A DNA stretch of 64,000 nucleotides from Alkalicoccobacillus plakortidis (GTDB lineage: Bacteria; Bacillota; Bacilli; Bacillales; Bacillaceae_D), in NCBI RefSeq assembly GCF_023703085.1, contig NZ_JAMQJY010000001.1:2232001-2296000 (forward strand), in the 5' to 3' direction. The position numbers and the translations under genes are program-made. The notes beneath the pieces are model-generated. The model searched no databases. It was given only the letters and a program-made list of their open reading frames with translations, and had not been told where the DNA came from. This document shows positions 4,801 to 55,630 of this stretch, one piece after another; position 1 is the stretch's first letter; every line of letters starts with the position of its first letter.

Positions 4801-5151
4801 CAAGAGAGATTGGGGTTTTAGCAAGATGTAGGGGTGAGGGGCAAGAGACATCTGAGCTTTAGCAGGAAATAGGGGGGCTCTCCAAGACGGATCAGAGCCT
4901 TTACCAAGATGCTGCGCTCCCCTCCAAGACAGTTCCAGCCTCTACCAAGAACTAGCGCTCCTCTCCAAGACAGTCCCTGCCTCTACCAAGAACCAACGCT
5001 CCTCTCCAAGACAGTTCCTGCCTCTACCAAGAACTAGCGCTCCTCTCCAAGACGGTTCCTGCCTCTACCAAGAACCAACGCTCCTCTCCAAGACAGTTCG
5101 AGCTTTTCCAACAATCCAAGCACGATACCAAGAAGAGCCCTCTCATCAAGA
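4801..5151. repeat. Tandem array A: 41-bp period built of alternating 20/21-bp half-units
   Basis: A CAAGA core (one copy CAGGA, one CAACA) recurs at 4801, 4822, 4842, 4863, 4883, 4905, 4925, 4946, 4966, 4987, 5007, 5028, 5048, 5069, 5089, 5109, 5129 and 5147. Spacings alternate 21 and 20 bp almost without exception. Linkers fall into two alternating classes of 16 and 15 bases. Right-hand units are nearly identical and pyrimidine-rich; the left four keep the core but have G-rich linkers. The array fills the space between two convergent genes. It has no coding capacity worth calling and is not CRISPR-like. Arrays near 51.4 and 55.5 kb share the geometry but not the sequence. Confidence 0.9.
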
Positions 5152-5160
5152 CGGGCTCTT
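5133..5160 (+). terminator. Hairpin at the right end of array A
   Basis: AAGAGCCC (5133-5140) pairs with GGGCTCTT (5153-5160) around a 12-base loop that contains the last CAAGA core. Only a weak T tract follows (AGATTTT), so it is either a poor terminator for the rpiR-type gene or a structure built from the final repeat units. Confidence 0.4.
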
Positions 5161-5166
5161 AGATTT

Positions 5167-6579
5167 TCAACTTAGGTGATACGTTTCTACTGCTTTGTGC
5201 AGTCTACTTACGCCGTCTTGGATTTCAGACTCAGTTAAGCTACCGTAACCGAGCACCATCTGCTTGGTGTGGTAGCCTTTTTTTAATGCATAGTACTCGA
5301 CTGGGTAGACTACTACTCCGTGCTTTTTGCAATGAGAAACAAATGATTGGTTAACCTCAAGTTCCCTCCATTCAACTACAGCATGCATGCCTGCTGCTTG
5401 ACCAATGATGTCTAGTCCTGGAAAGGTGTTCCGCAGGGCAGCAACTAGTGCTTTTCTTCGCTTCTCATAGATTCTTTTCATTCTTCGTACGTGTTGGTCT
5501 AAGTAACCTTCTTCAATAAAACGCGCCATTACTTGTTGTTCGAGGGTCGCTGTGTGGCGATCAGAAAACCATTTTAAGTCTTTAAATGGTTCTACTAAAT
5601 GTCTTGGGAGTATGACATAGCCAATGCGCAGAGCTGGTGAGAGAATTTTACTAAATGTACCGACATAAATTACCCGCTCTGGTTCCAGTCCCTGCATGGA
5701 AAAAACGGCTGTTCCTTCATAGGTAAATTCACTGTCGTAATCATCTTCAACGATATAAGAGTCCATTTTACGAACGTACTCTACAAGCTGGATTCTGCGT
5801 TGGATGGGTAATACTGCACCTAACGGGAATTGGTGTGAGGGTATAACAAATACAAAGCTCGGTTTTTTATTTCGAGGCAACTGGTCAGGCTTTATACCAA
5901 GCCGGTCTGCTTTAATGGGCTCAACGGCCGCTCCTGCCTTTGTAAAAATTTGACGCATTTCGTCAGTGACAGGGTCCTCTACAGCTACACACTCTCCTTC
6001 TTTCATTAATAGTTGTGTAATTAATGAAAGACCTTGAGTGGCTCCAGCAGTAATGACAATTTGCTCCGGGTGGCAGGAGACACCTCTAGTACGTGCTAAA
6101 TAAGTGGTTAATACGCGGCGTAACGTCTCATCACCGAGTGGAGAACGATAACCAAATAACTCATCAGATGAGTCGTAGCACACTTCCTTCGCCAGACGCC
6201 CCCATACTTTCCGCGGAAAATGATCCATGGCGGGGTGACTGGCACGAAAATCAATGAGCTGTTCATCATACTGCTCGGTTTGAAGCCAATTTGATAAATC
6301 GACCTCTCTTTGTTCTTTCTCTGCTGCTTTTAACACGACACCTTCAGCAACATACGTCCCTGAACGAGGTTTTACAATAAGATAACCCTCAATGATTAGC
6401 TGATCATAGGCGTCGGTTACCGTATTACGAGAAACGCCTATCGAATCTGCTAATTCTCTTGTTGAAGGGAGTCTATCATGCTCTTTTAATTGTTCACTTA
6501 AGATCAGTGTTCTAATTTGTGTATAAACCTGCTGTACGAGAGATATAGATGTGTCTCGATCAATTGGAAACCACAGCAC
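5167..6579 (-). CDS. MocR/PdxR-type regulator (GntR helix-turn-helix fused to aminotransferase-like domain)
   Basis: A 470-residue fusion. Residues about 10-75 form a GntR winged helix (LPSTRELADSIGVSRNTV); from about 110 to the end is a fold-type I aminotransferase domain with the PLP-binding lysine in TFSKILSP near residue 310. MocR proteins use PLP and amino compounds to control nearby genes. The start is a GTG at 6579 preceded by AAAGGAGAATG. It is divergent from the aspartate/glutamate racemase-like gene at 6691, its likely target (inference). PdxR itself, which controls PLP synthesis, is an alternative, but no pdxS/pdxT genes are nearby. Confidence 0.88.
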   Translation of the reverse strand: MLWFPIDRDTSISLVQQVYTQIRTLILSEQLKEHDRLPSTRELADSIGVSRNTVTDAYDQLIIEGYLIVKPRSGTYVAEGVVLKAAEKEQREVDLSNWLQTEQYDEQLIDFRASHPAMDHFPRKVWGRLAKEVCYDSSDELFGYRSPLGDETLRRVLTTYLARTRGVSCHPEQIVITAGATQGLSLITQLLMKEGECVAVEDPVTDEMRQIFTKAGAAVEPIKADRLGIKPDQLPRNKKPSFVFVIPSHQFPLGAVLPIQRRIQLVEYVRKMDSYIVEDDYDSEFTYEGTAVFSMQGLEPERVIYVGTFSKILSPALRIGYVILPRHLVEPFKDLKWFSDRHTATLEQQVMARFIEEGYLDQHVRRMKRIYEKRRKALVAALRNTFPGLDIIGQAAGMHAVVEWRELEVNQSFVSHCKKHGVVVYPVEYYALKKGYHTKQMVLGYGSLTESEIQDGVSRLHKAVETYHLS

Positions 6580-6690
6580 ATTTCATTCTCCTTTCTATCT
6601 GGCACCCTAAAAGTTGCTCATTCCTGGATCTTTTTCATACCAGTATAGCATGCTACGATATAGAAAATGAATGAACGGAGGAGTTCGAAC

Positions 6691-7392
6691 ATGAAAACAA
6701 TTGGTTTTATTGGCGGACTTAGTTGGGAATCGACAGCTGATTACTACAAATATGTGAATGAATATGTAAAGTGTGAACTAGGAGGTCTTCATTCTGCTAA
6801 ATGTGTACTCCATTCCTTTGATTTTCAAGAGATTGTAGATTTACAAAAGCTTGGTGAGTGGGAGTTAGCAACAGCTAAGATGATTGAGGCTGCTCAAAAT
6901 TTAGAGAAAGCCGGAGCGGATCTTATTGTGATTTGTACAAATACAATGCACCTAATGGCAGAAGAGGTTGAAAAAGCAATTTCAATTCCACTTATCCACA
7001 TAGCTGATGCTGTGGCGTCATCAATCAAAAAAGCAAATATGACTCGCGTCGGTCTGCTAGGAACAGCTTTTACGATGGAGAAATCGTTTTATAAGGATCG
7101 CCTTGCTACACATGGGATTGAATGTATTATTCCCTGCGAGATAGGTCGACAAGATGCGCATGAGATTATCTTTTCAGAGCTGTGTCTGGGAGACATACGC
7201 CCTGAATCAAAAATAAGATATCAACAGCTTATTAACCAATTATCTGAAAACGGTGCAGAAGGTGTTATCTTAGGTTGTACTGAGATTCCATTACTTATTA
7301 AACAAGGGGATTCAAGTTTACCTGTATTTGATTCAACGAAGCTACATGCTGAAGCAGCTGTTACTTTTGCACTTGAACGAGTATTAGTGTGA
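6691..7392 (+). CDS. Aspartate/glutamate racemase family protein
   Basis: About 233 residues, PLP-independent racemase fold with two catalytic cysteine regions: CTNTMH in the first half and GCTEIPLL in the second. The start MKTIGFIGGLSWEST is typical of the YgeA/aspartate racemase subgroup. I start at 6691 because CGGAGGAG lies eight bases before it; an in-frame ATG at 6667 lies upstream of that site. A strong terminator follows directly. The divergent MocR regulator suggests a role in D-amino acid or amino acid catabolism, but broad-specificity racemase or a related activity cannot be separated by sequence alone. Confidence 0.85.
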   Translation: MKTIGFIGGLSWESTADYYKYVNEYVKCELGGLHSAKCVLHSFDFQEIVDLQKLGEWELATAKMIEAAQNLEKAGADLIVICTNTMHLMAEEVEKAISIPLIHIADAVASSIKKANMTRVGLLGTAFTMEKSFYKDRLATHGIECIIPCEIGRQDAHEIIFSELCLGDIRPESKIRYQQLINQLSENGAEGVILGCTEIPLLIKQGDSSLPVFDSTKLHAEAAVTFALERVLV

Positions 7393-7400
7393 TTTATCAA

Positions 7401-7428
7401 CGCAAACATCAAAATGTTTGCGTTTTTT
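7401..7428 (+). terminator. Rho-independent terminator of the racemase gene
   Basis: Perfect stem CGCAAACAT (7401-7409) / ATGTTTGCG (7414-7422), four-base loop, then six T. It begins eight bases after the stop codon. Confidence 0.92.
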
Positions 7429-7637
7429 CGTGGATAAAATGAAGTTATCCTCAGGTTTATCCACATATCCACCATTCACGGTTCCAATAATACCGATTAT
7501 TTTTTAAAGTTATTCACAATATCACCAATTCACCTTAGGAAGATATCCACATGAATCATTCGATGTTTATGAAAGCGCTCATTTGTAAAGTCTATATATA
7601 AGACATAATAAAAGTATCCCCAAGAGGTGACCTACAA

Positions 7638-8191
7638 ATGAAAAAAATATCTTTTTTGATACTTGCTTTAGGATTTGTTGTTTTAGGTGCTTGTAACGAT
7701 GATGGAACGATTGCGGACCCAGATGCAGAAATGAATGAATCTTCCATGCATGAGGATATGGACCACTCGAGCTCTGGCGAAGTTCCAAAAGGAATAGTGA
7801 ACGCTGATTCACCAACATTTCCACCTGGAAGTGACGCTGTCATTCGAACAAATCATATGAAAGATATGGATGGTGCTGAAGCAGTTGTTTCAGGTGCATA
7901 TGATACAACTGTCTACTCAGTATCTTACAGCCAACGACTGATGGAGATGAGGTTTGGAATCACAAATGGGTTGTTCATGAGGAACTAGAAGGTGTTGGAG
8001 ATGAACCTCTTGAGCCTGGTTCAACTGTCACTCTCAATGCAGGCCATATGAAAGGTATGGAAGGCGCTGAAGCCACAATTGAAACGGCTAAGCAAACAAC
8101 TGTATATATGGTGGATTTTAGACCTACAATTGGAGGAGAAATGGTTCTAAACCATAAATGGGTAACAGAGGACGAACTGGATAAACCTTAA
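7638..8191 (+). pseudogene. ydhK: YdhK-like DUF1541 lipoprotein, one-base frameshift
   Basis: The N-terminus is a lipoprotein signal (lipobox LGAC, Cys about 19) followed by a Met/His-rich linker and two copies of the DUF1541 motif (HMKDMDGAEA and HMKGMEGAEA). The frame breaks after VYSVSY at about 7928 and continues one frame over as PTTDGDEVWNHKW to a stop at 8191; restoring one C (CAGCC to CCAGCC) gives one 184-residue protein. B. subtilis YdhK belongs to this family; its role in the envelope is not established. RBS AGAGGTGA precedes the ATG. The lesion lies in a CCAGC context like most frameshifts of this window, so an assembly error is possible. Confidence 0.82.
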
Positions 8192-8200
8192 GCTTATTAA

Positions 8201-8239
8201 AAAAAGAAGTGGACATCATGATATTGTCCACTTCTTTTT
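8201..8239. terminator. Bidirectional terminator between ydhK-like gene and nirD
   Basis: A 15-bp perfect stem (8201-8215 with 8225-8239) around a 9-base loop, with an A run on the left and a T run on the right, so it can end transcripts from both convergent genes. Confidence 0.9.
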
Positions 8240-8247
8240 ATTACTTA

Positions 8248-8574
8248 TTAGTCCATTAAAAGATACACGCCATCATCAATGATAGAAACATCATAGGTTT
8301 TTACACACCCTACATCTGGCGCTACGGCTTCACCTTTCCTCAAATCAATTTTCCAGTCATGCATCGGACAGAAAACATGCTCACCACTTACAATTCCATC
8401 AGATAAAACGCCACCTTTGTGAGGACAACGATTTTCTACAGCTAATACTTCGTCATTATCTTGACGAAATAATGCTAACTCTAATCCGGCAATGGTTAGC
8501 TTCTTGCCGATACCGACAGATAGTTCTCTCAATTGAGCGACATAAATATGTTGTTCATTCAATACTTGTGTCAT
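8248..8574 (-). CDS. nirD: Assimilatory nitrite reductase small subunit, Rieske type
   Basis: 108 residues with the Rieske [2Fe-2S] ligands C50-x-H52 (CPHKGG) and C69-xx-H72 (CPMHDW). NirD partners NirB in NADH-dependent reduction of nitrite to ammonium in the cytoplasm; the B. subtilis counterpart is NasE. It is the last gene of nasF-nirC-nirB-nirD, 12 bases after nirB, and is followed by a bidirectional terminator. No oddities. Confidence 0.94.
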   Translation of the reverse strand: MTQVLNEQHIYVAQLRELSVGIGKKLTIAGLELALFRQDNDEVLAVENRCPHKGGVLSDGIVSGEHVFCPMHDWKIDLRKGEAVAPDVGCVKTYDVSIIDDGVYLLMD

Positions 8575-8586
8575 TTTTCATCCTCC

Positions 8587-11013
8587 TTAGTTAGTTACTT
8601 CTACTTCTTTCTTTTCATAAAGGGATTCCTGCTTATCTTTGCTTTCCAGAACATCACTCCAAGGATCCTGTTGTTTTGTTAATGCAAGTTCTACACGCTC
8701 AATAAGCTGCGCACGTTTCTCTTCATTTTCAAGTGCTTTTTTGATGTGATCTAATCCAACACGTTCTACCCAGTGAGAAGTACGCTCTAGATATCTAGCA
8801 TCTTCACGATAGAATTGCAGAAATGAACTAATTGTATCCAATACTTCCTGGTCTGTATGAACCTTCGCAAACAGTTCTGCACTTCGAAGGTCTACACCAC
8901 CATTACCACCAACATAAATTTCCCAGGCTCCTTCAACACCAACAATTCCTATATCTTTGATTCCAGACTCTGCACAATTACGTGGGCAGGCAGATACAGC
9001 CATCTTCACCTTATGCGGCGTACTTAATCCTTCATATTTTTTCTCGATTTGTATACCTAAACCGATTGAATCCTGAGTTCCAAAGCGGCAGAAATTCTCT
9101 CCTACACATGTTTTTACGGTTCTTATTGATTTCCCGTATGCATAACCAGAACGCATGCCTAGATCCGTCCATACCTTAGGAAGATCTTCCTTAGCAATAC
9201 CAAGCAAGTCGATCCGTTGTCCACCCGTTACCTTAAGTAGAGGCACTTGATATTTATCTGCTACATCTGCAATTTTTCGTAGTTGTTCAGAATTTGTTAC
9301 GCCACCATACATTCTTGGTACAACAGAGAATGTTCCGTCATTCTGGATATTAGCGTGTAATCGTTCGTTCACAAATTTAGATGTTGAATCGTCCTCATAT
9401 TCAATTGGATTATTTAAACCTAAGTAGTAGTTCACGGCAGGACGGCATTTAGAGCACCCATTTTCTGTGGTCCACCCTAGTACATTCATCACTTCTCTGA
9501 CATAGTTTAATCCCTTATCACGAATCTCAGCTGCCACTTCTTCATGAGAAAGATCGGAACATCCACAGATTGGCTCTTTCTGAGACGAAGCCTCTTCTCC
9601 AGTGGTGACAGAGAGTAGTTCAGCAACAAGTGGTTTACATCCACCACATGAACGAGAAGCATTTGTACAAGCCTTGACTTGATCTACAGTTGTTAAGCCC
9701 TGCTCATTTATCGCTTTTACAATGTCACCTTTTGATACTCCATTACATCCACAGATGGTCTCACTATCAGCCATCGCAACAACAACACTTTCCTTTTCAT
9801 CTGATTCGTTTTCAGATGGAAGAATGGCTACCTTACTCATTTTTGAAATATCTTGCCCGTTTCTCATCATTGTTAGCAATCTTGGTGAATCAGATGTATC
9901 TCCAAATAATACAGCTCCAATGACCTTGTTATCTTCTACTACTACCTTTTTAAAGATTCCTTCAAATTCATCGTGAACACGAATGGACTTTGTCTTCTCG
10001 CCATCTTGGAATCGTCCAGCAGAGAATACATCTACTCCTGATACCTTCAGTTGCGTATAAACAATAGATCCTTGATATCCCGGCTCTATTAATGTGTCAT
10101 TGGCACAGATATGTTCAGCCAAAGCTTTGCCTTGCTCATATAACGGCGCAACAAGACCATAAACAATTCCACTATGTTCAGCGCACTCACCGACAGCATA
10201 AACGTTTTGAACGGATGTCTGCATATAATCATTAACGACTATAGCGCGATTAGTCTCTAATCCTGCTTCCTTAGCAAGTGCTACATTTGGTTTAATCCCT
10301 ACAGCCATCACAACTAAGTCTGCGTCAAGCTTTGATCCATCCTTAAAGAGCACACCATCTACTCGCTTTTTCCCCGTTAGTCGTTCGGTGTGAGCATTGA
10401 GTCGGAACTTCATACCCTGCTCTTCTAATTCTTCTTTCAACATTCTTCCTGCTTGATCATCTAGTTGTCTTTCCATTAGATAATCAGCGATATGAATGAC
10501 TTCCACTTCCATATCTAAATTTAATAAACCTCGAGCTGCTTCTAAACCAAGTAATCCACCGCCAATAACAGCAGCTTTTTTATAATTTTTGGCTGTGTCT
10601 ATCATTGTTTCGCAGTCTTTTATATTACGGAAGGCGATGACACCCTCTTTATCTGCTCCTGGAAGCGGAAGCATAAATGGATTCGACCCTGTTGCAAAAA
10701 TCAATTGATCATAGTGACGACTTATTCCATTTTGGCTTATCACCGTTTGAGACTTAGTATCAACCTTTACGACTGTGTCTCCTGTAAAGAGTTCAATTTG
10801 ATTTTCTTCATACCATTCGTAGCTGTTTAGAACAATACTGTCTATGCTTGCATCTCCTTGCAAGACAGATGATAAAAGAATTCGATTATAGTTTGGATGT
10901 GGTTCTTCACCAAAAACAGTAATCTCAAATTTATTTGGATCTTTTTTGATGATTTCCTCTAAAGTTCGAACGCCTGCCATTCCATTCCCAATTAAGATGA
11001 TCTTTTGCTTCAA
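8587..11013 (-). CDS. nirB: Assimilatory nitrite reductase [NAD(P)H] large subunit
   Basis: 808 residues. Order: FAD/NAD-binding oxidoreductase domain (about 1-310, GNGMAGVRTLE start), two BFD-like [2Fe-2S] domains (CGCNGVSKGD near 420 and CGCSDLSHEE near 485), then the ferredoxin-like half-domain and the siroheme/[4Fe-4S] domain with CVGENFCRFG and SACPRNCAES supplying four cysteines. This is the full NirB/NasD architecture: electrons from NAD(P)H pass through FAD and Fe-S to siroheme, reducing nitrite to ammonium. It lies 14 bases downstream of the nitrite channel gene and just before nirD. Siroheme would be supplied by the SUMT gene at the head of the operon. Confidence 0.95.
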   Translation of the reverse strand: MKQKIILIGNGMAGVRTLEEIIKKDPNKFEITVFGEEPHPNYNRILLSSVLQGDASIDSIVLNSYEWYEENQIELFTGDTVVKVDTKSQTVISQNGISRHYDQLIFATGSNPFMLPLPGADKEGVIAFRNIKDCETMIDTAKNYKKAAVIGGGLLGLEAARGLLNLDMEVEVIHIADYLMERQLDDQAGRMLKEELEEQGMKFRLNAHTERLTGKKRVDGVLFKDGSKLDADLVVMAVGIKPNVALAKEAGLETNRAIVVNDYMQTSVQNVYAVGECAEHSGIVYGLVAPLYEQGKALAEHICANDTLIEPGYQGSIVYTQLKVSGVDVFSAGRFQDGEKTKSIRVHDEFEGIFKKVVVEDNKVIGAVLFGDTSDSPRLLTMMRNGQDISKMSKVAILPSENESDEKESVVVAMADSETICGCNGVSKGDIVKAINEQGLTTVDQVKACTNASRSCGGCKPLVAELLSVTTGEEASSQKEPICGCSDLSHEEVAAEIRDKGLNYVREVMNVLGWTTENGCSKCRPAVNYYLGLNNPIEYEDDSTSKFVNERLHANIQNDGTFSVVPRMYGGVTNSEQLRKIADVADKYQVPLLKVTGGQRIDLLGIAKEDLPKVWTDLGMRSGYAYGKSIRTVKTCVGENFCRFGTQDSIGLGIQIEKKYEGLSTPHKVKMAVSACPRNCAESGIKDIGIVGVEGAWEIYVGGNGGVDLRSAELFAKVHTDQEVLDTISSFLQFYREDARYLERTSHWVERVGLDHIKKALENEEKRAQLIERVELALTKQQDPWSDVLESKDKQESLYEKKEVEVTN

Positions 11014-11027
11014 GATGTCTCTCTCCT

Positions 11028-11873
11028 TTATAATGATTTAGCTGACCGAATCGGTGATGCTCGAAATGATTCATTACTCTGTTTTTCACTTTGTTTGTTT
11101 CGTTTACTTGTATTAAGTAACCAGTAAATACTTCCTACAAAAAGTCCCCCACCCACAATATTCCCAAGCGTGACCGGAATGATATTATGTAGGTAGCCTC
11201 CAAGTGTTACAACCTCTCCACCAGAGTAAAACATGGCCAGCCCAAGTACCGTCATGTTAGCAATGGAATGCTCGTAGCCTGAAGCTATAAATGTAAACAG
11301 CATCCAAAATATTAGAATTAGCTTCGCCACATCATTTTTGGTACGAATCGCTGTCCAAATGGCTAAACAGACTAACCAATTACAAAGAATACCTCTAAAA
11401 AACAGCTCACTGCTTCCAAGTGATGTCTTCTTTTCAGCTAGAGTAAACAACAAATGTCCAGATGAAATCCCATTCAGAACCCCTGCCCCGATGATTAACC
11501 CACATAATGCAGCTGTCCCCACAAAATTTCCCGCATAACACCAGATCCAGTTTTGCACCAGGTCTTTCCATGTTGTTTTTCCAGAAAGAGTGCTAACTGT
11601 AAAAACCATATTATTACCTGTAAATAGTTCTGAACCTGCAAAAATGACAAGAGTCAGAGCGATACCAAAAGATAATCCCATAACAAGTGTTGTAACGGCT
11701 GAAGACTGAGCTGCTAAAGGCGCTCCAATCGACAAAATTAGGATAATGCCGATTCCAACATAGGCACCTGCTAAACACGCTGATAAAAAATACCGTAATT
11801 TACTTGTTTCAAGCTGTTTTTTCTTTGAAACTGCCATATTGTTTAATGTGTCGATACTATCTTTAAACAACAA
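11028..11873 (-). CDS. nirC: Formate/nitrite transporter family channel (nitrite uptake)
   Basis: 281-residue membrane protein of the FNT family, with about six hydrophobic helices and glycine/serine-rich segments typical of the pore (AGAYVGIGIIL, FAGSELFTGNNMV, ASGYEHSIANM). FNT channels pass small monovalent anions; the location between the SUMT gene and nirB makes nitrite the likely substrate. The annotated start is a TTG at 11873 with AAAGGTG upstream; an ATG at 11837 is the alternative. No nitrate reductase gene is in the window, so this unit serves nitrite itself or nitrate reduced elsewhere. Confidence 0.88.
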   Translation of the reverse strand: MLFKDSIDTLNNMAVSKKKQLETSKLRYFLSACLAGAYVGIGIILILSIGAPLAAQSSAVTTLVMGLSFGIALTLVIFAGSELFTGNNMVFTVSTLSGKTTWKDLVQNWIWCYAGNFVGTAALCGLIIGAGVLNGISSGHLLFTLAEKKTSLGSSELFFRGILCNWLVCLAIWTAIRTKNDVAKLILIFWMLFTFIASGYEHSIANMTVLGLAMFYSGGEVVTLGGYLHNIIPVTLGNIVGGGLFVGSIYWLLNTSKRNKQSEKQSNESFRASPIRSAKSL

Positions 11874-11900
11874 TCTTCACCTTTTTTCTATATGAAGTTT

Positions 11901-13061
11901 TCAGGCTTCATGCTCTACTACGTGATCTACTCCCGGTATAAAGGCTTTAACGAAAGACTGTTCCGTTTCCGTTTCATCAATGATTCGATCTGCTGTATAT
12001 CCATGTGCCGCCAAACTAATGCTCGTTTCTAGACCTTTACAAATCCACCTATAGTCAAATAACTGACTTCTTTGAATTCCAGATAAATCTATATATTCGA
12101 AAAATTCAACGCAGTCTTGAACACTATTCAGTAAAATCGTATTGATATGCTGATCTTCAACTAGTCTCGTTAACACAATCTGATCGCGTTTATTATTATT
12201 GACTCTATTCAAAAAAGGATATTGATAGATATCTGCTCCATTTTGTTTCAAATAGTCAACGTCATTATTTAACTCGTTAGTTGGATTAAGTATGCCCAAA
12301 CCAGCTAGCGGCTTATCTTCAAACCACTTAAGCTTACTTCTCATCTTGATTACATTACCCACTATGATCACTGCTGGATTTTCAATGCCTATCAATTCTG
12401 CTTGATTAGCTATCGTTACAAGAGTTCCCTCGACCGACCTTTGCTTACTGTACGTTCCCCACTGTACAATTAACATCGGAGTCTCTTTATCCATACCATG
12501 CCTAATTAATTCTTCCGTTATTGTTCGAAGATGTCGAATTCCCATATAAAACACGATTGTATCAACAGCATTCGCAAGTGACTCCCAGTTAACAGTTGGC
12601 TTACCTTCCTTTGTACAGGTATGACCAGTGACAGTCGCATAGGATCCAGATAGACTTCGATGTGTTAATGGGACCCCAGAGTAGATGCTTGCTGCACTAC
12701 CAGATGTAATACCGGGTATAATTTCATACTTTATATGATGCCGGGCACATTGCTCAGCCTCTTCACCAACCCTACCAAAAATCGAAGGATCGCCTCCCTT
12801 TAACCGAACAACATTTAAACCCCTTTTTGCGTGAATTAACAATTCTTTTTGAATATCTTCCTGTCGCAGTGTATGCTTACAGGGCTGCTTCCCACAATAG
12901 ATTAACTTTGCGTTCTTATTTGTTTCTGTAAGTAAAAAAGGGTTAACAAGCCGATCGAAAATAATAACATCCGCTTTTTGAATTAATCGTAAGCCCTTAA
13001 CAGTGATTAGTTCTAGATCTCCAGGTCCCGCGCCGACAAAATACACACAGCCTTGTTTCAT
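11901..13061 (-). CDS. nasF: Uroporphyrinogen-III C-methyltransferase (SUMT) for siroheme, with C-terminal extension
   Basis: About 386 residues. The first 245 are the SAM-dependent tetrapyrrole methylase (GAGPGDLELIT, VRLKGGDPSIFGR, GVPLTHR), making precorrin-2 from uroporphyrinogen III. The remaining 140 look like a reduced HemD-like region, as in B. subtilis NasF, which is longer. I start at 13061 (MKQGCVYF) because GAGAGGAG precedes it; an ORF start at 13103 has no such site. First gene of the nitrite operon and adjacent to the TnrA-type promoter. The extension is short for a working uroporphyrinogen synthase, so it may be vestigial. Confidence 0.88.
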   Translation of the reverse strand: MKQGCVYFVGAGPGDLELITVKGLRLIQKADVIIFDRLVNPFLLTETNKNAKLIYCGKQPCKHTLRQEDIQKELLIHAKRGLNVVRLKGGDPSIFGRVGEEAEQCARHHIKYEIIPGITSGSAASIYSGVPLTHRSLSGSYATVTGHTCTKEGKPTVNWESLANAVDTIVFYMGIRHLRTITEELIRHGMDKETPMLIVQWGTYSKQRSVEGTLVTIANQAELIGIENPAVIIVGNVIKMRSKLKWFEDKPLAGLGILNPTNELNNDVDYLKQNGADIYQYPFLNRVNNNKRDQIVLTRLVEDQHINTILLNSVQDCVEFFEYIDLSGIQRSQLFDYRWICKGLETSISLAAHGYTADRIIDETETEQSFVKAFIPGVDHVVEHEA

Positions 13062-13089
13062 CTCTACACTCCTCTCTATATATTCAGTC

Positions 13090-13141
13090 ATTCTAATAGA
13101 CATATTTCATTTACAAGTATTAATTGTTAGTATTTCTAACA
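13090..13141 (-). promoter_or_regulatory. TnrA-type box and promoter of the nitrite operon
   Basis: TGTTA-N7-TAACA at 13125-13141 matches the TnrA/GlnR consensus TGTNA-N7-TNACA exactly. A -10-like TAGAAT (minus strand, 13090-13095) predicts a start near 13083, which puts the box centre at -50, the usual position for activation by TnrA. The nasF start codon is at 13061. Confidence 0.75.
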
Positions 13142-13545: not shown

Positions 13546-13579
13546 AAAAAAAACAGCCAGCATCCTTAGATACTCGCTG
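13546..13579 (-). terminator. Terminator of the 2-oxoacid dehydrogenase operon
   Basis: On the minus strand CAGC-G-AGTATC, loop TAAG, GATGCT-G-GCTG, then eight T. It lies 11 bases after the lpd stop. Confidence 0.85.
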
Positions 13580-13590
13580 CTCTCCTCTAT

Positions 13591-14973: not shown

Positions 14974-14985
14974 CTAATCACTCCC

Positions 14986-16308: not shown

Positions 16309-16324
16309 TCGTTATCCCCCCTTC

Positions 16325-43065: not shown

Positions 43066-43081
43066 GCTTTTGGTGGATTCT

Positions 43082-43122: not shown

Positions 43123-43138
43123 CGGTCACACAGCAATC

Positions 43139-43939: not shown

Positions 43940-44016
43940 GTTCGGTTCACTCCTCTAACCCGTTCTCTTCTTTAATCATATATGAACAGGTCAGGAAGTG
44001 AAAGCGGTACACCTAT

Positions 44017-44754: not shown

Positions 44755-44770
44755 TAACAATCACCCTTTC

Positions 44771-45589: not shown

Positions 45590-45607
45590 CAGGTGGAAGC
45601 TCCTTTT

Positions 45608-47541: not shown

Positions 47542-47561
47542 TATCGACGCACCTCCTGGAA

Positions 47562-48842
47562 TTATTTCAAAACGGCTTCTGCACGTTCGGTCGCATTGTC
47601 TAAAGCATCTTGACTTGAACCATCCTGTAAAACGGCTCTTGTGATCTCTTCGACTAATGCATTCACTACCTCAGGATAGCCCTCTACCATTGGTCGTTCA
47701 TGTGCATATTCAAGCTGATCTACGGCTGTTTTGTATTGTGGAACCTCTTCATAAACCTTTTGCATTTTCTCCGTTTCAGAAGCAGAATGTCTACTTGGCA
47801 GATAACCAGTAAATTCACTTGAATAAGCTGTTTGCTCTGTATCTGTCATCCATTTTATAAATGTCCAGGCAGCTTCTTGTTTTGCGTCATCAAGACCTGC
47901 TGTCATCACTAAATTTGCTCCACCTGTCGGAACACCAAATTGCTTATTCTCTGGCATAAATGCTGTATCCACCTCATAGCCTTGATCATTTGCGTTCGTC
48001 ATTAAATACGTTAGATCTGCTGTTGAGCTGAGCATCATTCCTGACTTTCCATTCACAAAATCTTGCTTCGCTGTATCTCCGGCTACATCGCCTGTTGGAA
48101 CTTTGATTGAACCTGCTTCATACATCTCTTTAATAAAATCAATGGCTTCTGCCCCTGCTTCACTATTAAAAGCAGGCTTACCAGCATCATCAATCATTTC
48201 ACCACCAGCTTGAGTAACGAAGGCTTCATAAAACCAGATATCAATAGGCATCGTTGCCCCTTTCATTTCTCCATCCTCTGATAAAACTGCAGCATACTCC
48301 TTAAATTCATCCCATGTTTTTGGACAAGCTGGGTCTAGTCCTTTTTCTTCTAGAAGCGTTGTATTTAAGTACAAAATTGGTGTGCTACGAAGATACGGTA
48401 GTGCATAAATTTCCTCATCTACGTAGGAATTCCCCATTAACCCTTCATTAAAGTCCTCAATATCTAACTCATCTTGATCAATAAAAGGCTGCAAGCTCTC
48501 TGTCATTCCATTTTTCGCAAAGGTCTCTACAGAAGCAATTTCATTTTGAGTTACTTCCGGCGCATCTTTAGCTGCAAACGCTGCTTGAGTTTTGGCATGC
48601 AATTCATCATAGGTTCCTTGGAATTCTGCAGTTACCTGGATGTTTGGGTGTGCCTCGTTAAACTGTTGAACAAGGTTTTCGTTATTTTCTCCAATCTTAT
48701 CTCCCCAGGCATACCAATATGTAAGCTCTATAGGTTCATCAGGCTGTGCCCCACTAACTGATTCTGTTGATCCCGACGAACCACATCCTGCGATTACCAA
48801 CATTGCCGCCATCGCGCTTCCAAGTGTCCAATATGTCTTCAT
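47562..48842 (-). CDS. ugpB: Extracellular solute-binding lipoprotein, UgpB type
   Basis: 426 residues. Lipobox IAGC (Cys about 20) then a family-1 binding domain (ELTYWYAWGDKIGENNENL, FNGLMG-like and GKSGMMLSSTADLTYL). The WYAWG and GGANLVM segments resemble UgpB-type glycerol-3-phosphate binding proteins. First gene of the operon, AAGGAGG upstream. Ligand assignment rests mainly on the linked ugpQ. Confidence 0.88.
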   Translation of the reverse strand: MKTYWTLGSAMAAMLVIAGCGSSGSTESVSGAQPDEPIELTYWYAWGDKIGENNENLVQQFNEAHPNIQVTAEFQGTYDELHAKTQAAFAAKDAPEVTQNEIASVETFAKNGMTESLQPFIDQDELDIEDFNEGLMGNSYVDEEIYALPYLRSTPILYLNTTLLEEKGLDPACPKTWDEFKEYAAVLSEDGEMKGATMPIDIWFYEAFVTQAGGEMIDDAGKPAFNSEAGAEAIDFIKEMYEAGSIKVPTGDVAGDTAKQDFVNGKSGMMLSSTADLTYLMTNANDQGYEVDTAFMPENKQFGVPTGGANLVMTAGLDDAKQEAAWTFIKWMTDTEQTAYSSEFTGYLPSRHSASETEKMQKVYEEVPQYKTAVDQLEYAHERPMVEGYPEVVNALVEEITRAVLQDGSSQDALDNATERAEAVLK

Positions 48843-49070
48843 GCTTTTGCCTCCTTAGTGATTTTCTATCTTGCCTTCATGCTACGCCCCTTTCATTAAG
48901 CATCTGTGAATGGAAGATAAAGTGTTTTTTAAGAGCTTAGGGGAACCGTTGAGTTTGTAAAGATCGTTCATGATTTAAAATTCCATGTTTTAATTTGTTT
49001 TGTGTGGGAACGCATATAAGTAGAGATCGTTGATCTTAAAACAACCCATTAAAAAGGAGACATGTTTTTC

Positions 49071-50240
49071 ATGAGTCGCTTTACAATTCCTAGAAATATC
49101 TATTTTGAGGAAGATGCACTCGATACCTTAAAATCATTTGAAGGTAAAAAAGCAGCCCTTATCATTGGGGGCAGTTCACTTAAAAAGAATGGAAACTTAG
49201 ATCGAATCGAAAAGCTTTTATCTGAGGCTGATATAGAAACTAAAGTATTTGATGGATTTAACCAAGAACCCACTGTAAAGATTGTAAAAGATGGTGCCAA
49301 AGCCGTTGAGAGTTTTGATCCTGATTGGATTATTGGGATTGGCGGTGGATCCGTGATCGATTCAGCTAAAGCTGTTTGGTTGTTCCACGAGCATCCTGAT
49401 CTTTCATTTGAAGATGCAGCCAAACCATTTACCCTACCGAAACTTCGGACAAAAGCGAAGTTCGCCGGTATCCCAACCACAAGCGGAAGTGGTGCAGAGG
49501 TATCAAATCTCTCTGTAGTGACAGATGATGAAACCAATGTAAAATACCCACTGGCTGACTTTGAGCTAACACCAGATGTGGCAATCATTGATCCAAGCCT
49601 AGTAGATAGCCTACCTCAGCACTTGATTGCCAACACAGGTATGGACGCATTCACTCATACTATTGAAGCGTATGTAGCCAAACCACGAACAGTATTCACA
49701 GATGCTTTAGCTGTAGGTGGCGGCGAGATTTTGAAAGAGCATCTACTGTCTTCCTACAAAGGCAATAAAGAGTCTCGCAAGCAGGTGCATAACGCGCAAG
49801 CCATGGCCGGCATGTCCTTTGCTAACGCCGTTCTCGGTAACGTGCACAGCTTGGCTCACAAAAGTGGCCCAACCTTTGGTATTCCACACGGCTTAGCAAA
49901 TGCGATTTATTTACCATACGTGATCGAGTTTAACCGCACAGTTGTGACAGATCGCTATGCAACATTTGCAAGAAAAATTGGACTTGAAGCATCTAGCGAT
50001 GAGAAGCTAGTTGACGAGTTAATTGCTTATATCAATCAACTCAATAAAGATCTAGGCATCCAAGCTACGCTTAAAGAATATGGCGTCTCGGATGAAGACT
50101 TCCATAAACACGTGGATACTATGGCGAAAAATGCTGTTGAAGATCCGTGTACCGGTACAAACCCACGCGAAACCTCTGTTGAGCAAATGAAAGAACTTTA
50201 TGAGATTTCGTTCCACGGAAAAGTACCAAGTCACGCATAA
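49071..50240 (+). CDS. Iron-containing alcohol dehydrogenase
   Basis: About 389 residues of the group III (iron-dependent) family: nucleotide region GIGGGSVIDSAKAV near 95 and metal ligands expected in GMDAFTHTIEAY, NVHSLAHKSG and GIPHGLANA. Reduces aldehydes or oxidises alcohols with NAD(P)H. The first ATG (49062) is only two bases from GGAG, so I use the ATG at 49071. Location some 5 kb before lut and rha genes would allow a role as a lactaldehyde/propanediol reductase, but 1,3-propanediol or butanol dehydrogenases look alike. Confidence 0.87.
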   Translation: MSRFTIPRNIYFEEDALDTLKSFEGKKAALIIGGSSLKKNGNLDRIEKLLSEADIETKVFDGFNQEPTVKIVKDGAKAVESFDPDWIIGIGGGSVIDSAKAVWLFHEHPDLSFEDAAKPFTLPKLRTKAKFAGIPTTSGSGAEVSNLSVVTDDETNVKYPLADFELTPDVAIIDPSLVDSLPQHLIANTGMDAFTHTIEAYVAKPRTVFTDALAVGGGEILKEHLLSSYKGNKESRKQVHNAQAMAGMSFANAVLGNVHSLAHKSGPTFGIPHGLANAIYLPYVIEFNRTVVTDRYATFARKIGLEASSDEKLVDELIAYINQLNKDLGIQATLKEYGVSDEDFHKHVDTMAKNAVEDPCTGTNPRETSVEQMKELYEISFHGKVPSHA

Positions 50241-50277
50241 AAAAAGGATGGCACCTGATTGGTGTCCATCTTTTTTT
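50241..50277 (+). terminator. Terminator of the alcohol dehydrogenase gene
   Basis: AAAAAGGATGGCACC pairs with GGTGTCCATCTTTTT through one bulge, then more T; it starts at the stop codon. Confidence 0.85.
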
Positions 50278-50388
50278 ATGTCTAATAAACTCATGTGGTT
50301 GGGAAACCCATATACCCCCTATTCTTATAAACAATGATCTTTATAATTGGAGGTATACTACTTATTGGAGGGATTAATATTGTCAAAA

Positions 50389-51220
50389 ATGAAGACACTT
50401 AGAAAATTGTCATTGTATGCTGCATTTACACTTTCAAGCAGCTCGATGGTCACCGCTCCTCTCTTTGCACAGACAGATACACATCAACCACTTATCCCGT
50501 ATCACTCACTCCACCTCTTGCTACATTCTAATGAGAAAGAAGGGTTGGTCTTATTCTGGCTCAACTGGCCCGCAGTTCTGGGCAGACCTACATGATGAAT
50601 ACATAGCATGCTCACAAGGAAAAGAACAATCGCCTGTAGCCTTACATAATGAAGACGCATCAGATGAAGGAAAATGGTCATTAGATCTTGACTATAACGA
50701 AACAGATTTCTCCATTGAGAATAACGGTCATACCATTCAAGCAAATGTAGGTGATCATTCATCAAATAAATTGATTGTAAATGGAACCGATTACAAGTTG
50801 GCGCAGTTCCATTTCCATTCTCAAAGTGAGCATACCTTAGACGATGATTATTACGAGATGGAACTTCATTTAGTTCATCAGGATGAGGAAGATAACTTGG
50901 CCGTCTTAGGAGTTCTAATTGAGGAAGGAGAAAAGAACGAGACTCTAGCAAACATGTGGGATGTGATACCCGAAACTGAAGGAGAAGCCGATGAAACCAT
51001 TTCTCTTAATCCCTCAGAACTAGTACCTAAAGATCTATCAACCTTCCAATATCACGGTTCTCTAACTACGCCACCTTGCTCAGACCATGTTAAATGGAGT
51101 GTCAGTGACACCTCTATCAGCATGTCAGCTGAACAACTACAAACATTTCAACAGATCTATCCAGACAATCATCGTCCCATTCAAGATTTAGGAGATAGGG
51201 AGATTGGAACTCATTATTAA
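50389..51220 (+). pseudogene. Secreted alpha-type carbonic anhydrase, one-base frameshift
   Basis: A signal peptide (MKTLRKLSLYAAFTL to APLFAQT) leads into NEKEG, then the frame shifts and continues as WSYSGSTGPQFWADL. The enzyme domain has the zinc histidines in FHFHSQSEH and ELHLVHQ and the SLTTPPC loop of alpha carbonic anhydrases. Removing one base in GGGTTGG (about 50542-50546) yields one 276-residue secreted protein. It would hydrate CO2 outside the cell. This lesion does not fit the CCAGC pattern cleanly. The in-frame downstream stretch lacks a signal peptide of its own. Confidence 0.82.
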
Positions 51221-51310
51221 AAGGTAAGTAGACCAGCAGACGTTTGTTTGCTGGTTATCTGTTTAGATAGAGCGGAGAGTTTGATGGCGTCTCCGTTCCT
51301 TTTCCTCCCA

Positions 51311-51556
51311 TCGCTCCAATCTGGTCTTCTATCGCTCAACTTCCTCCTCCATTGCTCCAATTCGGCTTTCTATCGTTCCACTTCCTCCTCCATCGCTCCA
51401 ATTCGGCTTTCTATAGCTCCACTTTCCCTTCCATTGCTCCAATCTGGCCTTCTATCGTTCCACTTTCCCTTCCATTGCTCCAATTCGGCTTTCTATAGCT
51501 CCACTTTCCCTTCCATTGCTCCAATTCGGCTTTCTATCGTTCCACTTCCTCCACTA
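51311..51556. repeat. Tandem array B: 41-bp period built of alternating 21/20-bp half-units
   Basis: A core T(C/T/A)G(C/T)TCCA recurs at 51311, 51332, 51352, 51373, 51393, 51414, 51434, 51455, 51475, 51496, 51516 and 51537; the spacing alternates 21 and 20 bp with no exception. Half-units alternate between an A-TTCGGCTTTC-type and a C-TTTCCCTTC-type linker. The plus strand is almost free of purine runs. It lies between the carbonic anhydrase gene and the lut operator. A 106-codon open frame crosses it, but a 41-bp period is not a multiple of three, so that frame is fortuitous. Confidence 0.92.
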
Positions 51557-51607
51557 GTTTTCTATTGAACTCCCATCTTCACAGGTTTATAATAAAGACA
51601 ATATTTA

Positions 51608-51620
51608 ATGGTCTGACCAT
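51608..51620. promoter_or_regulatory. LutR-type operator upstream of lutA
   Basis: ATGGTCTGACCAT is a perfect palindrome of the GntR/FadR operator class (TGGTC-N-GACCA), 22 bases before the lutA start codon. A related sequence precedes lutR. Confidence 0.65.
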
Positions 51621-51642
51621 ATGACTGATTGGAGTGATTGAT

Positions 51643-52368
51643 ATGAAAGTGTCCTTATTTATTACCTGTTTGGCGGATGTGTTTTACCCGAATGTCGGGA
51701 AAGATGTTGTTGAAGTCCTTGAACGCCAAGGCTGTGAGGTTGATTTCCCTGCTAGCCAGACCTGTTGTGGACAGCCGGCTTATAACAGTGGTTATCATAA
51801 GGAAACCAAAGAAGTTGCCAAAAGTATGATTCGATCGTTTGAGCATTCACAATATGTTGTCGCTCCTTCAGGTTCTTGTGCAGCGATGTTACATGAGTAC
51901 CCTCATCTGTTTAAGGATGATACAGCCATCTGGTTAAAACGAGCGGAAGAGCTTGCAGCAAAAACCTATGAGTTTACTCAATTTCTTGTTGATGTACTAG
52001 GTGTTGAAGATGTCGGCGCAACGTGTCCTGCATCAGCCACGTATCATACGTCTTGTCATATGACGCGACTACTTGGTGTAAAGGAAGCACCTATGAAGCT
52101 TTTAAAAAATGTAAGCGGATTAAATTATACGGAGCTTCCTGGTAAAGAAACCTGTTGTGGGTTTGGAGGAACCTTTTCTGTCAAAATGAAACCGATTTCT
52201 GAACAGATGGTCGACGAAAAAATCGCTCATATTGAAGAAACGAATTCTGAGGTGCTAATTGGTGCGGACTGTGGCTGTTTAATGAATATTGGCGGACGCC
52301 TAGAACGTCTAGGTAAACCTGTTCAAGTAAAGCATATTGCTGAAATTTTAAATCAACAGAAAGTGTAA
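51643..52368 (+). CDS. lutA: L-lactate utilisation protein LutA
   Basis: 241 residues with two cysteine-rich CCG-type motifs ([11 protein letters not shown] and KETCCGFGG) typical of GlpC/HdrD-like Fe-S subunits. With LutB and LutC it oxidises L-lactate to pyruvate in B. subtilis. Start ATG at 51643 has GGAG eight bases upstream; a GTG at 51634 is unlikely. First gene of lutABC; the palindromic operator upstream suggests repression by LutR until lactate is present. Confidence 0.94.
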
Positions 52369-52382
52369 AGGAGGAACCAATC

Positions 52383-53828
52383 ATGCCAATGAAAATTGGA
52401 GACAAACCGTTTTTTGATCGTGTGAATAAAGGCTTAGGCGACTCGTTTATGAGAGGCTCCGTTGTCTCCGCACAAGAACGCTTAAAAAATGCTAAAACAC
52501 GTTCATCTGATCAACTAGGTAACTGGGAGGATTGGCGTGAACAATCGGAAGAAATTAGACAACACACACTTGAGAATCTTGATTTTTACCTAGAACAACT
52601 CGCAACAAATGTAACGAAACATGGCGGACACATCTATTTTGCACAAACTGCACAAGAAGCAAATGACTATATTAAAAGTGTTGCGGAGAAAAATAACGCA
52701 AAGAAAATCATTAAATCGAAATCAATGGTAACAGAGGAAATTGGCATGAATGATGCGTTAGAGTCAATAGGATGCGAGGTAATTGAGTCCGACCTTGGCG
52801 AATATATTTTGCAGCTAGATGACCATGACCCGCCCTCTCATATTGTTGCTCCCGCACTTCATAAAAACCGTGATCAGATTCGTGATACATTTGAATCTAA
52901 ACGCCAATATAAGGGTAGCTCCACACCCGAGGAACTCGCATTATTTGCACGCCAACAGCTGAGAGAGGAGTTCCTAACAGCTGATCTCGGCATAACAGGC
53001 TGTAATTTTGCGGTTGCAGAATCTGGATCCGTTGCGCTTGTGACCAATGAAGGCAATGCGCATCTAACAGCCGATTTACCAAAAACTCAGATCTCAGTGA
53101 TGGGAATGGAACGGATTGTGCCTACGTGGGAAGAGCTTGATGTCATGGTGACAATGCTTTGTCGTAGCGCCGTTGGTCAAAATCTCACAAGTTATGTAAC
53201 GGGTTTAACCGGTCCACGACGTGAGGGTGAAACAGATGGTCCCGAGGAATTCCATTTAGTTGTAGTCGACAATGGTCGTTCTTCTATTCTTGGAACAGAA
53301 TTTCAATCGGTTCTACAATGCATTCGGTGTGCAGCCTGTATAAACGTTTGTCCCATCTACAGACATATCGGCGGACACTCTTACGGTTCCATTTATCCCG
53401 GCCCCATTGGTGCCGTGCTTTCTCCATTACTTGGTGGTTATGACGATAATAAAGAGCTGCCTTTTGCTTCAAGCCTTTGTGCAGCCTGTACGGATGCTTG
53501 CCCTGTAAAAATTCCGCTTCATAATCTATTAATTGAACATCGCCGCAAAATTGTTGAGGATGAGAAGATGAATGGCTTGGGTGAAAAGCTCGCCATGAGA
53601 GGTTTTGGCTTAGCTATGAGCTCATCAAAAGTCATGAGCACCGGCGCAAAGCTTGCTCCAAGACTGATGAAACCTCTTGTGAAGGATGGAAAAATTGTTC
53701 GTGGTCCAGGACCAATGAAACCATGGACGGACATTCGTGACTTCCCGACACCTGCCAATCAGTCCTTTAGAAAATGGTATAAGACAGAAAAAGGGGGAGC
53801 AGATCATGACAACAACAAAAGAAAATAA
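52383..53828 (+). CDS. lutB: L-lactate utilisation iron-sulfur protein LutB
   Basis: 481 residues. An N-terminal LUD domain ([15 protein letters not shown]) and two [4Fe-4S] motifs near residues 310-370 ([12 protein letters not shown] and [10 protein letters not shown]), then a C-terminal DUF3390-like tail. Electron-transfer core of the lactate oxidation complex. Fifteen bases after lutA; its 3' end overlaps lutC by 23 bases. No abnormality. Confidence 0.95.
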
Positions 53829-54522
53829 TCAAGAAACGTTTTTAAATGAAATTGCGAAAAACCTTGGACGCCCTAGAAAAAAAGAAGTCACTCGACCAAT
53901 ATGGAAAAAACGTCCTCAATGGGATGTCCTTGCAGATGCCTCCCCCGATCAGCTGGTTGAACAGCTGAAGGACCGTTGCCTAGCCATTCATACACAAGTA
54001 GAAGAGGCAACGCTTGAGACCCTTCCGGCTACATTAAATAAGGTACTGCAAGAGTACGAAGCCTCCTCTATCATTAATTGGAGCGATCCACGATTTGAAG
54101 AATTTGGCCTCCAATCATTTTTTGAAAAACATAGTGAAAATGGACATCCCGTTCACTATTGGGATCCAGAACGAGAAAAGGAAAACATCGCTTTTGCCGA
54201 AAAAGCAGACGTCGGTATCACATTTTCTGATATGACCCTTGCTGAATCAGGAACAGTGACACTGCTTAATACAGCGGGAAAAGGGCGATCCGTAAGCTTT
54301 TTGCCTAAATCGTACATCGCAATTATTCCTAAAAGCACACTAGTGCCGCGAATCAGCCAAGCTACTAGGATGCTTCATCAACTAGTGGAAGAGGATCAAC
54401 CATTCCCTTCCTGTGTAAATTTTGTTTCTGGCCCAAGTAACAGCGCGGATATTGAAATGAATCTCGTTGTAGGTGTTCACGGACCCGTACGTGCCTGTTA
54501 TATCCTTGTGGATGACAAGTAA
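53806..54522 (+). CDS. lutC: L-lactate utilisation protein LutC
   Basis: 238 residues with the LUD domain ([33 protein letters not shown]). Third component of the lactate oxidation system. I start at the ATG at 53806 with GGGGGAG upstream inside the end of lutB; an upstream in-frame start at 53737 would overlap lutB by 92 bases without a binding site. A terminator hairpin follows immediately. Confidence 0.94.
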
Positions 54523-54524
54523 AT

Positions 54525-54571
54525 AAAATGGAGAGACATCAGCTACTCAGCTGAGATCTCTCCATTTTTTT
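54525..54571. terminator. Shared terminator between lutC and lutR
   Basis: ATGGAGAGA and TCTCTCCAT form the lower stem and CAGCT/AGCTG an upper stem, with T7 on the right and A4 on the left. The lutR stop codon lies within the hairpin, so the structure serves both convergent genes. Confidence 0.82.
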
Positions 54572-55268
54572 GTTTGTATTCGACTAATAAGTCATTAATG
54601 GTATCTAAATGAATAGCCATTGCTTCTTTTGCTTCAGTTGGCTTTTTTGCCTTTATCGCCTCTGCTACGGCGATGTGCTGATCAACAAGCTTCTGTCTAA
54701 TTGAGTACCCTTCTATAACCTTTACCATCCAGACCTTGGTTACAACACTCGAAATTTGTAGCACTTCTGAGAGAAAGGAATTTCTCGCCATATCTGCAAC
54801 CAAACGATGAAACTCAAGATCAAGCTCTAAAAAGCGATCATGATTAGCGGAATCCTTCATTTTCCCAATCACTTCATCTAATTTTAAATGATCTTCTTCT
54901 GTGGACTTTGCCGCTGCCATTTCGGCCAAAACAGCTTCCATTTTCACTCTCGCCTCAACCAGTTCAAGAATATTATCATAGCTGATTTTGGACATCAACT
55001 CGAGGTGTTTAGTGAAGAAATCACCGAAGCTTTGTGCGACGAATGTCCCCTCAGGTACTCGGACTTCAACGAGACCTAACGCAACTAACGCTCGAATCGC
55101 TTCTCTGAGTGTACTTCTTCCAACACCAAACATTTCCATTAGCTGCTTCTCACTTGGCAACTTGCCACCAAGCGGGATCGTACCATTTATAATCAATTCC
55201 ATTAACTGCTGTACAATATTTTGAGACATCGTTGTCTTTTTTACTTGGTTAATCTGACCCTCTAGCAT
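54543..55268 (-). CDS. lutR: FadR-subfamily GntR regulator of lactate genes
   Basis: 241 residues: winged helix (LPSEKQLMEMFGVGRSTLREAI, about residues 40-61) and an all-helical FCD effector domain with likely metal/ligand histidines (DLEFHRLVADMARN). Convergent with lutABC and adjacent to it, so LutR by context; the family also includes LldR and PdhR. Operator-like sequences lie before lutA and before its own start, suggesting autoregulation. Downstream end is embedded in the shared terminator. Confidence 0.88.
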   Translation of the reverse strand: MLEGQINQVKKTTMSQNIVQQLMELIINGTIPLGGKLPSEKQLMEMFGVGRSTLREAIRALVALGLVEVRVPEGTFVAQSFGDFFTKHLELMSKISYDNILELVEARVKMEAVLAEMAAAKSTEEDHLKLDEVIGKMKDSANHDRFLELDLEFHRLVADMARNSFLSEVLQISSVVTKVWMVKVIEGYSIRQKLVDQHIAVAEAIKAKKPTEAKEAMAIHLDTINDLLVEYKQKNGEISAE

Positions 55269-55280
55269 CTACTCACTCCA

Positions 55281-55293
55281 ATGATCTGACCTT
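55281..55293. promoter_or_regulatory. Second LutR-type operator, upstream of lutR
   Basis: ATGATCTGACCTT matches the lutA operator ATGGTCTGACCAT at 11 of 13 positions and sits 13 bases before the lutR start codon, as expected for autoregulation. Confidence 0.5.
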
Positions 55294-55416
55294 AAGACCT
55301 TAATGATACATTAGGGTAGATGAAACGACAAGATCCTGCGTACTTTGCTTGTTCAGAATCAATGGTCTCCACACCGTCTAGCTGCAATGAACAGGAAATA
55401 TGTTCGGTCTTATTCC

Positions 55417-55630
55417 GATGTATTCGAGCTTTCTCGGATGTATTTCCTGCTCTTTCCGTTGTATTCGATCTTCTTCGGATGTATTTCCTGCTCTTTCCGT
55501 TGTATTCGATCTTCTTCGGATGTATTTCCTGCTCTTTCCGTTGTATTCGGTCTTCTTCCGATGTATCACGCTTCCTCCTGATGTATTTTCTCTCTTTCCG
55601 ATGTATTCAATCTTCTTCCGTTGTTTTTAC
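55417..55630. repeat. Tandem array C: 41-bp period built of alternating 20/21-bp half-units
   Basis: A core G(A/T)TGTAT recurs at 55417, 55437, 55458, 55478, 55499, 55519, 55540, 55560, 55580, 55600 and 55620 (last copy GTTGTTT). Spacing alternates 20/21 up to 55560 and is then 20. In the central part GATG and GTTG alternate with TTTCCTGCTCTT- and CGATCTTCTT-type linkers. Pyrimidine-rich on the plus strand. It lies upstream of lutR and downstream of rhaEW. Overlapping short open frames in three registers are by-products of the repeat. Confidence 0.9.

Follow-up and report, generated by a model that had tools for sequence, protein, structure and literature searches.

Non-coding tandem repeats of constant length have been described in Bacillus, where, according to the main text of a survey of 176 genomes, the repeat length is constant at either 20–21 or 52 nucleotides (nt) while the sequence is variable, carries short conserved words and falls into several families per genome (Subirana and Messeguer, 2021; PMC8161180). 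In the same text, the length of 20–21 nt is equated with two helical turns, a polymerising protein, a role in the nucleoid or small RNAs are proposed, and the function of the constant-length repeats is left open. Here we analyse three tandem arrays, named A, B and C, in a stretch of 64 kb of the 4.37-Mb genome of Alkalicoccobacillus plakortidis (C1:2232001-2296000, hereafter the window). On the description given in that main text they belong to the published Bacillaceae class of non-coding repeats with a constant length of 20–21 nt: the half-units are 20–21 bp long, non-coding, variable in sequence and repeated at least four times, and each array has a short core of its own. The original prediction, made from the letters of the window, had held that no described element fits the arrays, and this main text supersedes it on that point. 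The alternation of 20 and 21 bp spacings discussed below was not found described there, and that main text, as distinct from its supplements and the J. Bacteriol. 2020 companion paper, uses none of the terms skew, convergent, terminat- and intergenic.

All three arrays have a period of 41 bp according to Tandem Repeats Finder (TRF). Direct counting gives 18 cores in array A (4801–5147; 16 CAAGA, one CAGGA and one CAAGC) and 12 in array B (51310–51536), and array C has 11 (55417–55620), so that both the copy numbers and the shared 20/21-bp geometry first put forward are reproduced. The regular alternation initially read in all three is strict over the full length of array B, but is broken in the other two: the spacings of array A run 21, 20, 21, 20, 22, 20, 21, 20 and so on up to 5089 and are irregular beyond (28, 12, 18), and those of array C run 20, 21, 20, 21, 20, 21 and then 20, 20, 20, 20. 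Likewise, the plus strand had been called pyrimidine-rich in each array, which does not hold for the left third of array A (about 4760–4880), G-rich in contrast to its C-rich right part. The arrays had also been described as unrelated; they indeed have no core in common, but they are not one-offs, as the core class of each is found again at other loci in the genome and that of array B recurs in A. murimartini and A. gibsonii.

That such arrays are numerous emerged from a sample of 1.264 Mb, made of the window and 60 stretches of 20 kb, in which 50 repeat regions were recognised. Eight of them, with an overlap of at least 0.6 with open reading frames (ORFs), have periods that are multiples of 3 and were set aside, although one (L013 3811) is a 21-bp array of like appearance within an ORF that is doubtful. 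Also dropped were one duplicate (L062) and two non-coding regions whose periods differ (L020, 108 bp; L063, 15 bp), which left 39 non-coding arrays. Extrapolation from this number puts the total in the genome probably above 100. Further arrays, whose absence would have told against the original prediction, are present both here and in relatives. The 108-bp repeats in L020 (6306–7001) are arranged in tandem, every unit carrying a 21-codon reading frame and a Shine-Dalgarno-like site, and are perhaps repeated small peptide genes. As to location, 37 of the 39 arrays lie within gaps between ORF calls (after the regions overlapping ORFs had been set aside), in agreement with the position between transcription units first noted for the three.

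A scan of 864 kb at lags of 12–129 bp recovered arrays A, B and C and many others, against none in shuffles of the same 864 kb in 300-bp blocks, and almost every period among the 39 arrays is a multiple of about 20.5. When a periodic core model was fitted, 599 of 658 core spacings were 20 or 21 bp (21 bp, 306; 20 bp, 293; 19 bp, 31; 18 bp, 11; 23 bp, 9; 22 bp, 8); these counts are bounded, since the chain fit permits only 18–23 bp, and the lag scan serves as the unbounded check. Consecutive spacings of 20 or 21 bp differ from each other in 434 cases and are equal in 100, and alternation persists, 75 against 39, in arrays whose 41-bp units are less than 60% alike. The genome also holds geometries that do not alternate, namely pure 20, 21 + 21 + 20 and 19/21. 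Because pure-20 and 21/21/20 arrays exist, the rule concerns a half-unit of about 20.5 bp and not an exact 41; exact helical phasing, as originally proposed, is ruled out by the same arrays, and the irregularities of A and C speak likewise.

Within the half-units, conservation is concentrated in a core. Adjacent half-units have an identity of 0.81 in the best contiguous 7-bp block and of 0.38 elsewhere, and the contiguity of this block is significant (p < 0.05) in 24 of the 39 arrays, with a Fisher value of 1e-25 overall and p = 0.007 for array A; it falls below significance in the other 15, including B (p = 0.68) and C (p = 0.46). The original suggestion of selection on the spacing is supported in so far as there are signs of it, together with a short core. 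No single universal core was found: about ten classes are distinguished by eye, and simple sorting gives seven named classes and seven unclassed arrays. The commonest, CCAAGA, accounts for 17 of the 39 arrays and occurs in both orientations.

The arrays are also placed non-randomly with respect to genes. Two of the 39 lie outside called gaps, and the 37 array gaps comprise 13 convergent, 20 tandem and four divergent ones, compared with 78, 435 and 121, respectively, in the full set of 634 gaps of 60 bp or longer (odds of 4.4 for convergent, p = 2e-4). Since array gaps are long, with a median of 631 bp, the orientation test was redone against array-free gaps of 300 bp or longer, and the excess persisted (13/37 convergent vs 16/165, p = 3e-4), which is the outcome of the gene-orientation mapping that had been suggested at the outset. 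Gene 3′ ends that face an array tend to carry a terminator-like hairpin. An initial comparison, with a 400-nt search, gave 36 of 46 such ends against 303 of 545, but its control gaps were shorter, and it was therefore repeated with a fixed search of 130 nt and gaps of at least 300 bp: 32 of 46 array-facing ends have a hairpin within 130 nt, against 62 of 142 in array-free gaps (p = 0.004), the shorter array-free gaps giving 195 of 403. Among the 36 hairpins of the longer search, 33 precede the array edge (an overlap of up to 25 bp being permitted), and 23 of these are within 50 bp of it. By eye, arrays lie 3′ of terminator-like hairpins in other genomes too (L037, L072, L108, L109, L115, L121).

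A third property is a switch in base composition. Most arrays, read 5′ to 3′ on either strand, start G-richer and end C-richer. The skew declines in 33 of the 39 arrays, in 25 of them significantly by unit permutation, and the GC skew at the ends is higher on the left than on the right in 35 of 37 gaps (convergent 13/13, tandem 18/20, divergent 4/4), whichever of the four gene orientations is considered. No such skew is seen in array-free gaps of 120–800 bp in tandem (110/267) or divergent (25/94) orientation, and gene orientation is insufficient as its cause, since it also appears in array gaps of these two orientations. The gradient is confined to G and C, with no comparable gradient in AT skew across the arrays, and extends 60–80 bp beyond the array. 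The best 78-nt window with C above G (35% C, 11% G in the arrays) falls on the exit side for 69 of 78 array strands and for 186 of 384 strands of control gaps, which are slightly shorter (443 vs 516 bp); C minus G reaches at least 0.2 in 50 of the 78 and in 63 of the 384. In 240 kb from other contigs, fetched after the skew had been seen and held out, the end skew conforms in 11 of 12 arrays and the slope in 10 of 12, some of these stretches having been picked for pattern matches, not for skew. Within this genome the switch is firm; in other genomes it amounts to a trend.

Placement behind terminators, the convergent excess and the C-rich exit on both strands point, taken together, to a two-sided barrier against read-through, and the retention of a short core every two helical turns suggests a DNA-binding protein. 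Our preferred but tentative reading, which draws on sequence comparison, is that the arrays may be protein-bound core arrays working as bidirectional, Rho-assisted, fail-safe transcription insulators. The cores would be putative sites of a DNA-binding protein that assembles along one helix face; an RNA polymerase leaking past a terminator, from either side, would enter the array and, on leaving it, would make a C-rich, G-poor RNA, on which Rho could load and halt the polymerase before the neighbouring gene or promoter. Rho scores above the cut-off in five of five genus genomes and would be the obvious candidate partner. If true, this reading would explain how a constant length goes along with a free sequence. 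The wider claim, that the arrays form a new chromosomal boundary element, made of two-sided insulators with two-turn protein-binding cores and a composition switch as a Rho/R-loop trap, set behind terminators and re-invented with different cores across Bacillaceae, seems to us rather unlikely.

Several observations weigh against the insulator reading. Rho leaves the 20–21-bp periodicity of the cores unexplained, a Rho utilization (rut) site on the exit side acts late while one on the entry side would act sooner, and the same skew is accounted for by R-loops formed by G-rich entry RNA. With about ten cores in the genome, one common binding factor is unsupported, and four arrays lie in divergent gaps. 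The inner slope of array B is opposite to the rule (p = 0.985), as is that of L019 3296 (p = 0.95), the two being the only arrays significantly opposite in the unit permutation. A weak skew of like direction is present in convergent gaps that lack an array (30/45), and part of the skew may for this reason be general to gene ends. Among other members of the genus the ends agree in five of eight arrays and the slopes in seven of eight. Outside the genus the effect is weaker, at 17 of 23 arrays (p = 0.03), a tally that omits arrays with less than 60% of 20/21 spacings (6 of 12 in G054, 3 of 6 in G193 and 1 of 1 in G010); with the irregular ones included it is 22 of 33 (p = 0.08). Agreement is complete in G054 (6/6), G107 (4/4), Thalassobacillus (1/1) and G197 (1/1) and is 2/3 in G193, but G072 (3/7) and G185 (0/1) do not follow.

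A possible, though doubtful, alternative is the proposal that the arrays are nucleoid-organising sites, where a DNA-binding protein would polymerise along the cores and give the chromosome its shape, with transcription being incidental (Subirana and Messeguer, 2021). The two-turn periodicity and the many arrays over the genome accord with this proposal, as does their distribution along C1, with dnaA at 2.639 Mb and the skew switch near 0.3 Mb: 30 arrays were found in 664 kb of the origin-proximal part (1.75–2.75 Mb) and 7 in 500 kb at 0.25–1.75 Mb (p = 0.003), a split drawn post hoc, after inspection of the data. It leaves unexplained the placement by terminators, the convergent excess and the G-to-C switch.

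We regard as unlikely that the arrays act at the RNA level, either by being transcribed as sponge or processed small RNAs or by pairing of a G-rich 5′ part with a C-rich 3′ part. Arrays of 52 nt in B. coagulans are reported to be detected by RNA-seq (PMC8625621; PMC8161180), and G-rich and C-rich parts do pair in some folds, including that of array A. However, an array-closing stem was rejected: the left end of an array pairs no better with its own right end than with one exchanged from another array (mean rank on both strands, 21 of 39), which still allows loose low-complexity pairing. No common fold was seen in 16 folded arrays, compared by inspection and with no shuffle comparison; the window has no Rfam match at gathering thresholds, and the occurrence of the CCAAGA core in both orientations also argues against a function in RNA.

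Ordinary functionless minisatellites, grown by slippage and with a length set by the copying mechanism, seem to us improbable, although variation between species offers them some support. In the comparison of orthologous loci in five genomes of the genus, which had been suggested as a check on copy number, locus B carries 12 cores here, about five in A. murimartini (L127) and five in A. gibsonii (L130), with the same core class and different linkers; a single-core vestige that retains the G-rich left and C-rich right flanks in L129; and no array in L128. Locus A is an array or a bare hairpin depending on the species: in A. gibsonii (L137) the gene pair is the same but only the hairpin is present, and A. 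murimartini (L139) has a degenerate CCAAGA array beside a different neighbour gene. Among the five, array C is present at its locus in this genome only, and a GATGTAT array is found at a different locus in A. porphyridii (L023). Near-identical 41-bp or 82-bp units within several arrays, and the 15 arrays, B and C included, in which the contiguous core is non-significant, are equally in line with slippage. Nevertheless, slippage copies entire units, whereas neighbouring half-units share mainly the core, so that whole-unit slippage alone is insufficient; a neutral minisatellite, copied as a whole and diverging evenly, is not what the contiguous core of 24 arrays looks like. Periods almost all at multiples of about 20.5, a core retained between species while linkers are altered, and a skew switch that slippage does not lead one to expect, count against it too.

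The least probable account, R-loop barriers in which G-rich, C-poor entry RNA anneals back onto the template strand, so that RNA polymerase stalls whichever side it comes from, has in its favour the entry-side G-skew on both strands and a gradient in G and C alone, not in A or T, but these are data shared with the Rho reading, and nothing here tells the two apart.

Beyond the genus, cores were searched for as triplets with 20/21 spacing in a set of 199 genomes from the order, with reversed cores as controls; part of the matches may fall inside genes. Triplets of ACCGATAT occur in four of the 199 genomes, from four families, with 330 matches in G072 and none for the reversed control; those of TTTGAGC in 11 genomes from seven genera (133 matches), with a control of seven genomes and 11 matches; and those of ATCGYTYC in three genomes, with a control of 0. 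CCAAGA, found in eight genomes against 12 for its reversed control, was rejected as a core conserved beyond the genus. It thus seems that certain cores are found again in several families; CCAAGA is not, beyond the chance of meeting any array of this type.

Some repeats in related genomes are of interest in their own right. In another family, G193 and G046 hold TTTGAGCG arrays (L153, L155, L156, L160, L165, L169, L171) with units alike between loci, which terminate in a common element like ACGTGTAATAAATATAAGAACACGTACCGTRAA, containing an ACGTGT/ACACGT inverted repeat; they form a dispersed and possibly mobile repeat of some 150 bp. An array in L108 (7532–8092, partly N-masked) is inverted midway: GCTCGTTC-type cores are followed by a short palindrome and then by oppositely directed cores.

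In the window, array A (4795–5151, no strand assigned; 18 half-units with a CCAAGA-class core, from TRF and the core count) occupies the convergent gap between an RpiR-type gene (3907–4737, plus strand) and a MocR-type gene (5167–6579, minus strand). At its right edge, a hairpin AAGAGCCC...GGGCTCTT (5133–5160, minus strand), read directly from the sequence, stands at the 3′ end of the latter gene. Array B (51303–51552, no strand assigned; 12 half-units with an ATCGYTCCA-type core in 21/20 alternation) has immediately to its left a terminator-like hairpin (51231–51256, plus strand), 3′ of a carbonic anhydrase gene (50417–51220, plus strand) and likewise present in A. murimartini (L127). Immediately to its right is a sigma-A-like promoter, TTGAAC-17 bp-TATAAT (51565–51593, plus strand; also read directly), upstream of the lut genes; ATTGAAC and TATAAT of this promoter are conserved in the five genus genomes, and the LutB of the window is 98% identical to that of A. 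murimartini. Array C (55413–55630, no strand assigned; 11 half-units with a GATGTAT-type core) is flanked by the 5′ end of a GntR/FCD gene (54543–55268, minus strand) and the 3′ end of an SDR-type ORF (55712–56245, minus strand), which covers positions 83–235 of the 236 of the family profile and is apparently a fragment. The only ORFs overlapped by arrays B and C are mechanical ones that were dropped in the gene call.

CRISPR arrays consist of 23–47 bp repeats with unique spacers and are accompanied by cas genes; arrays of this kind were rejected on the shared core of only about 7 bp and the period of 20–21 bp, no search for cas genes having been made. STAR, BIME/REP and similar repeats resemble the arrays as dispersed intergenic elements with short cores; each of their families has one dispersed motif or palindrome and is not known to form two-turn arrays with many cores. 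A rut site is recognised by a C-rich, G-poor stretch of about 78 nt. The arrays share such a stretch with Rho-dependent terminators, here on the exit side of each strand, and no Rho-dependent terminator is known to be built as a two-turn core array or to be two-sided in the manner of the arrays.

The closest known elements are the constant-length Bacillus repeats. The 52-nt class likewise combines constant length with variable sequence and short conserved words; none of the 50 repeat regions sampled in this genome belongs to it, while 51/52-bp repeats that fit the published class are present in Natribacillus (L036 7275–7490 and 10445–10797) and Melghirimyces (L028 12182–12406). The 20–21 nt repeats are called species-specific in the main text of the survey (Subirana and Messeguer, 2021), whereas here core classes are shared within the genus, and a few seem to be found in other families too. 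To the description given in that main text, the present arrays add figures for a shared core of about 7 bp, a placement in convergent gaps and by terminators, and a fall in GC skew across the arrays.

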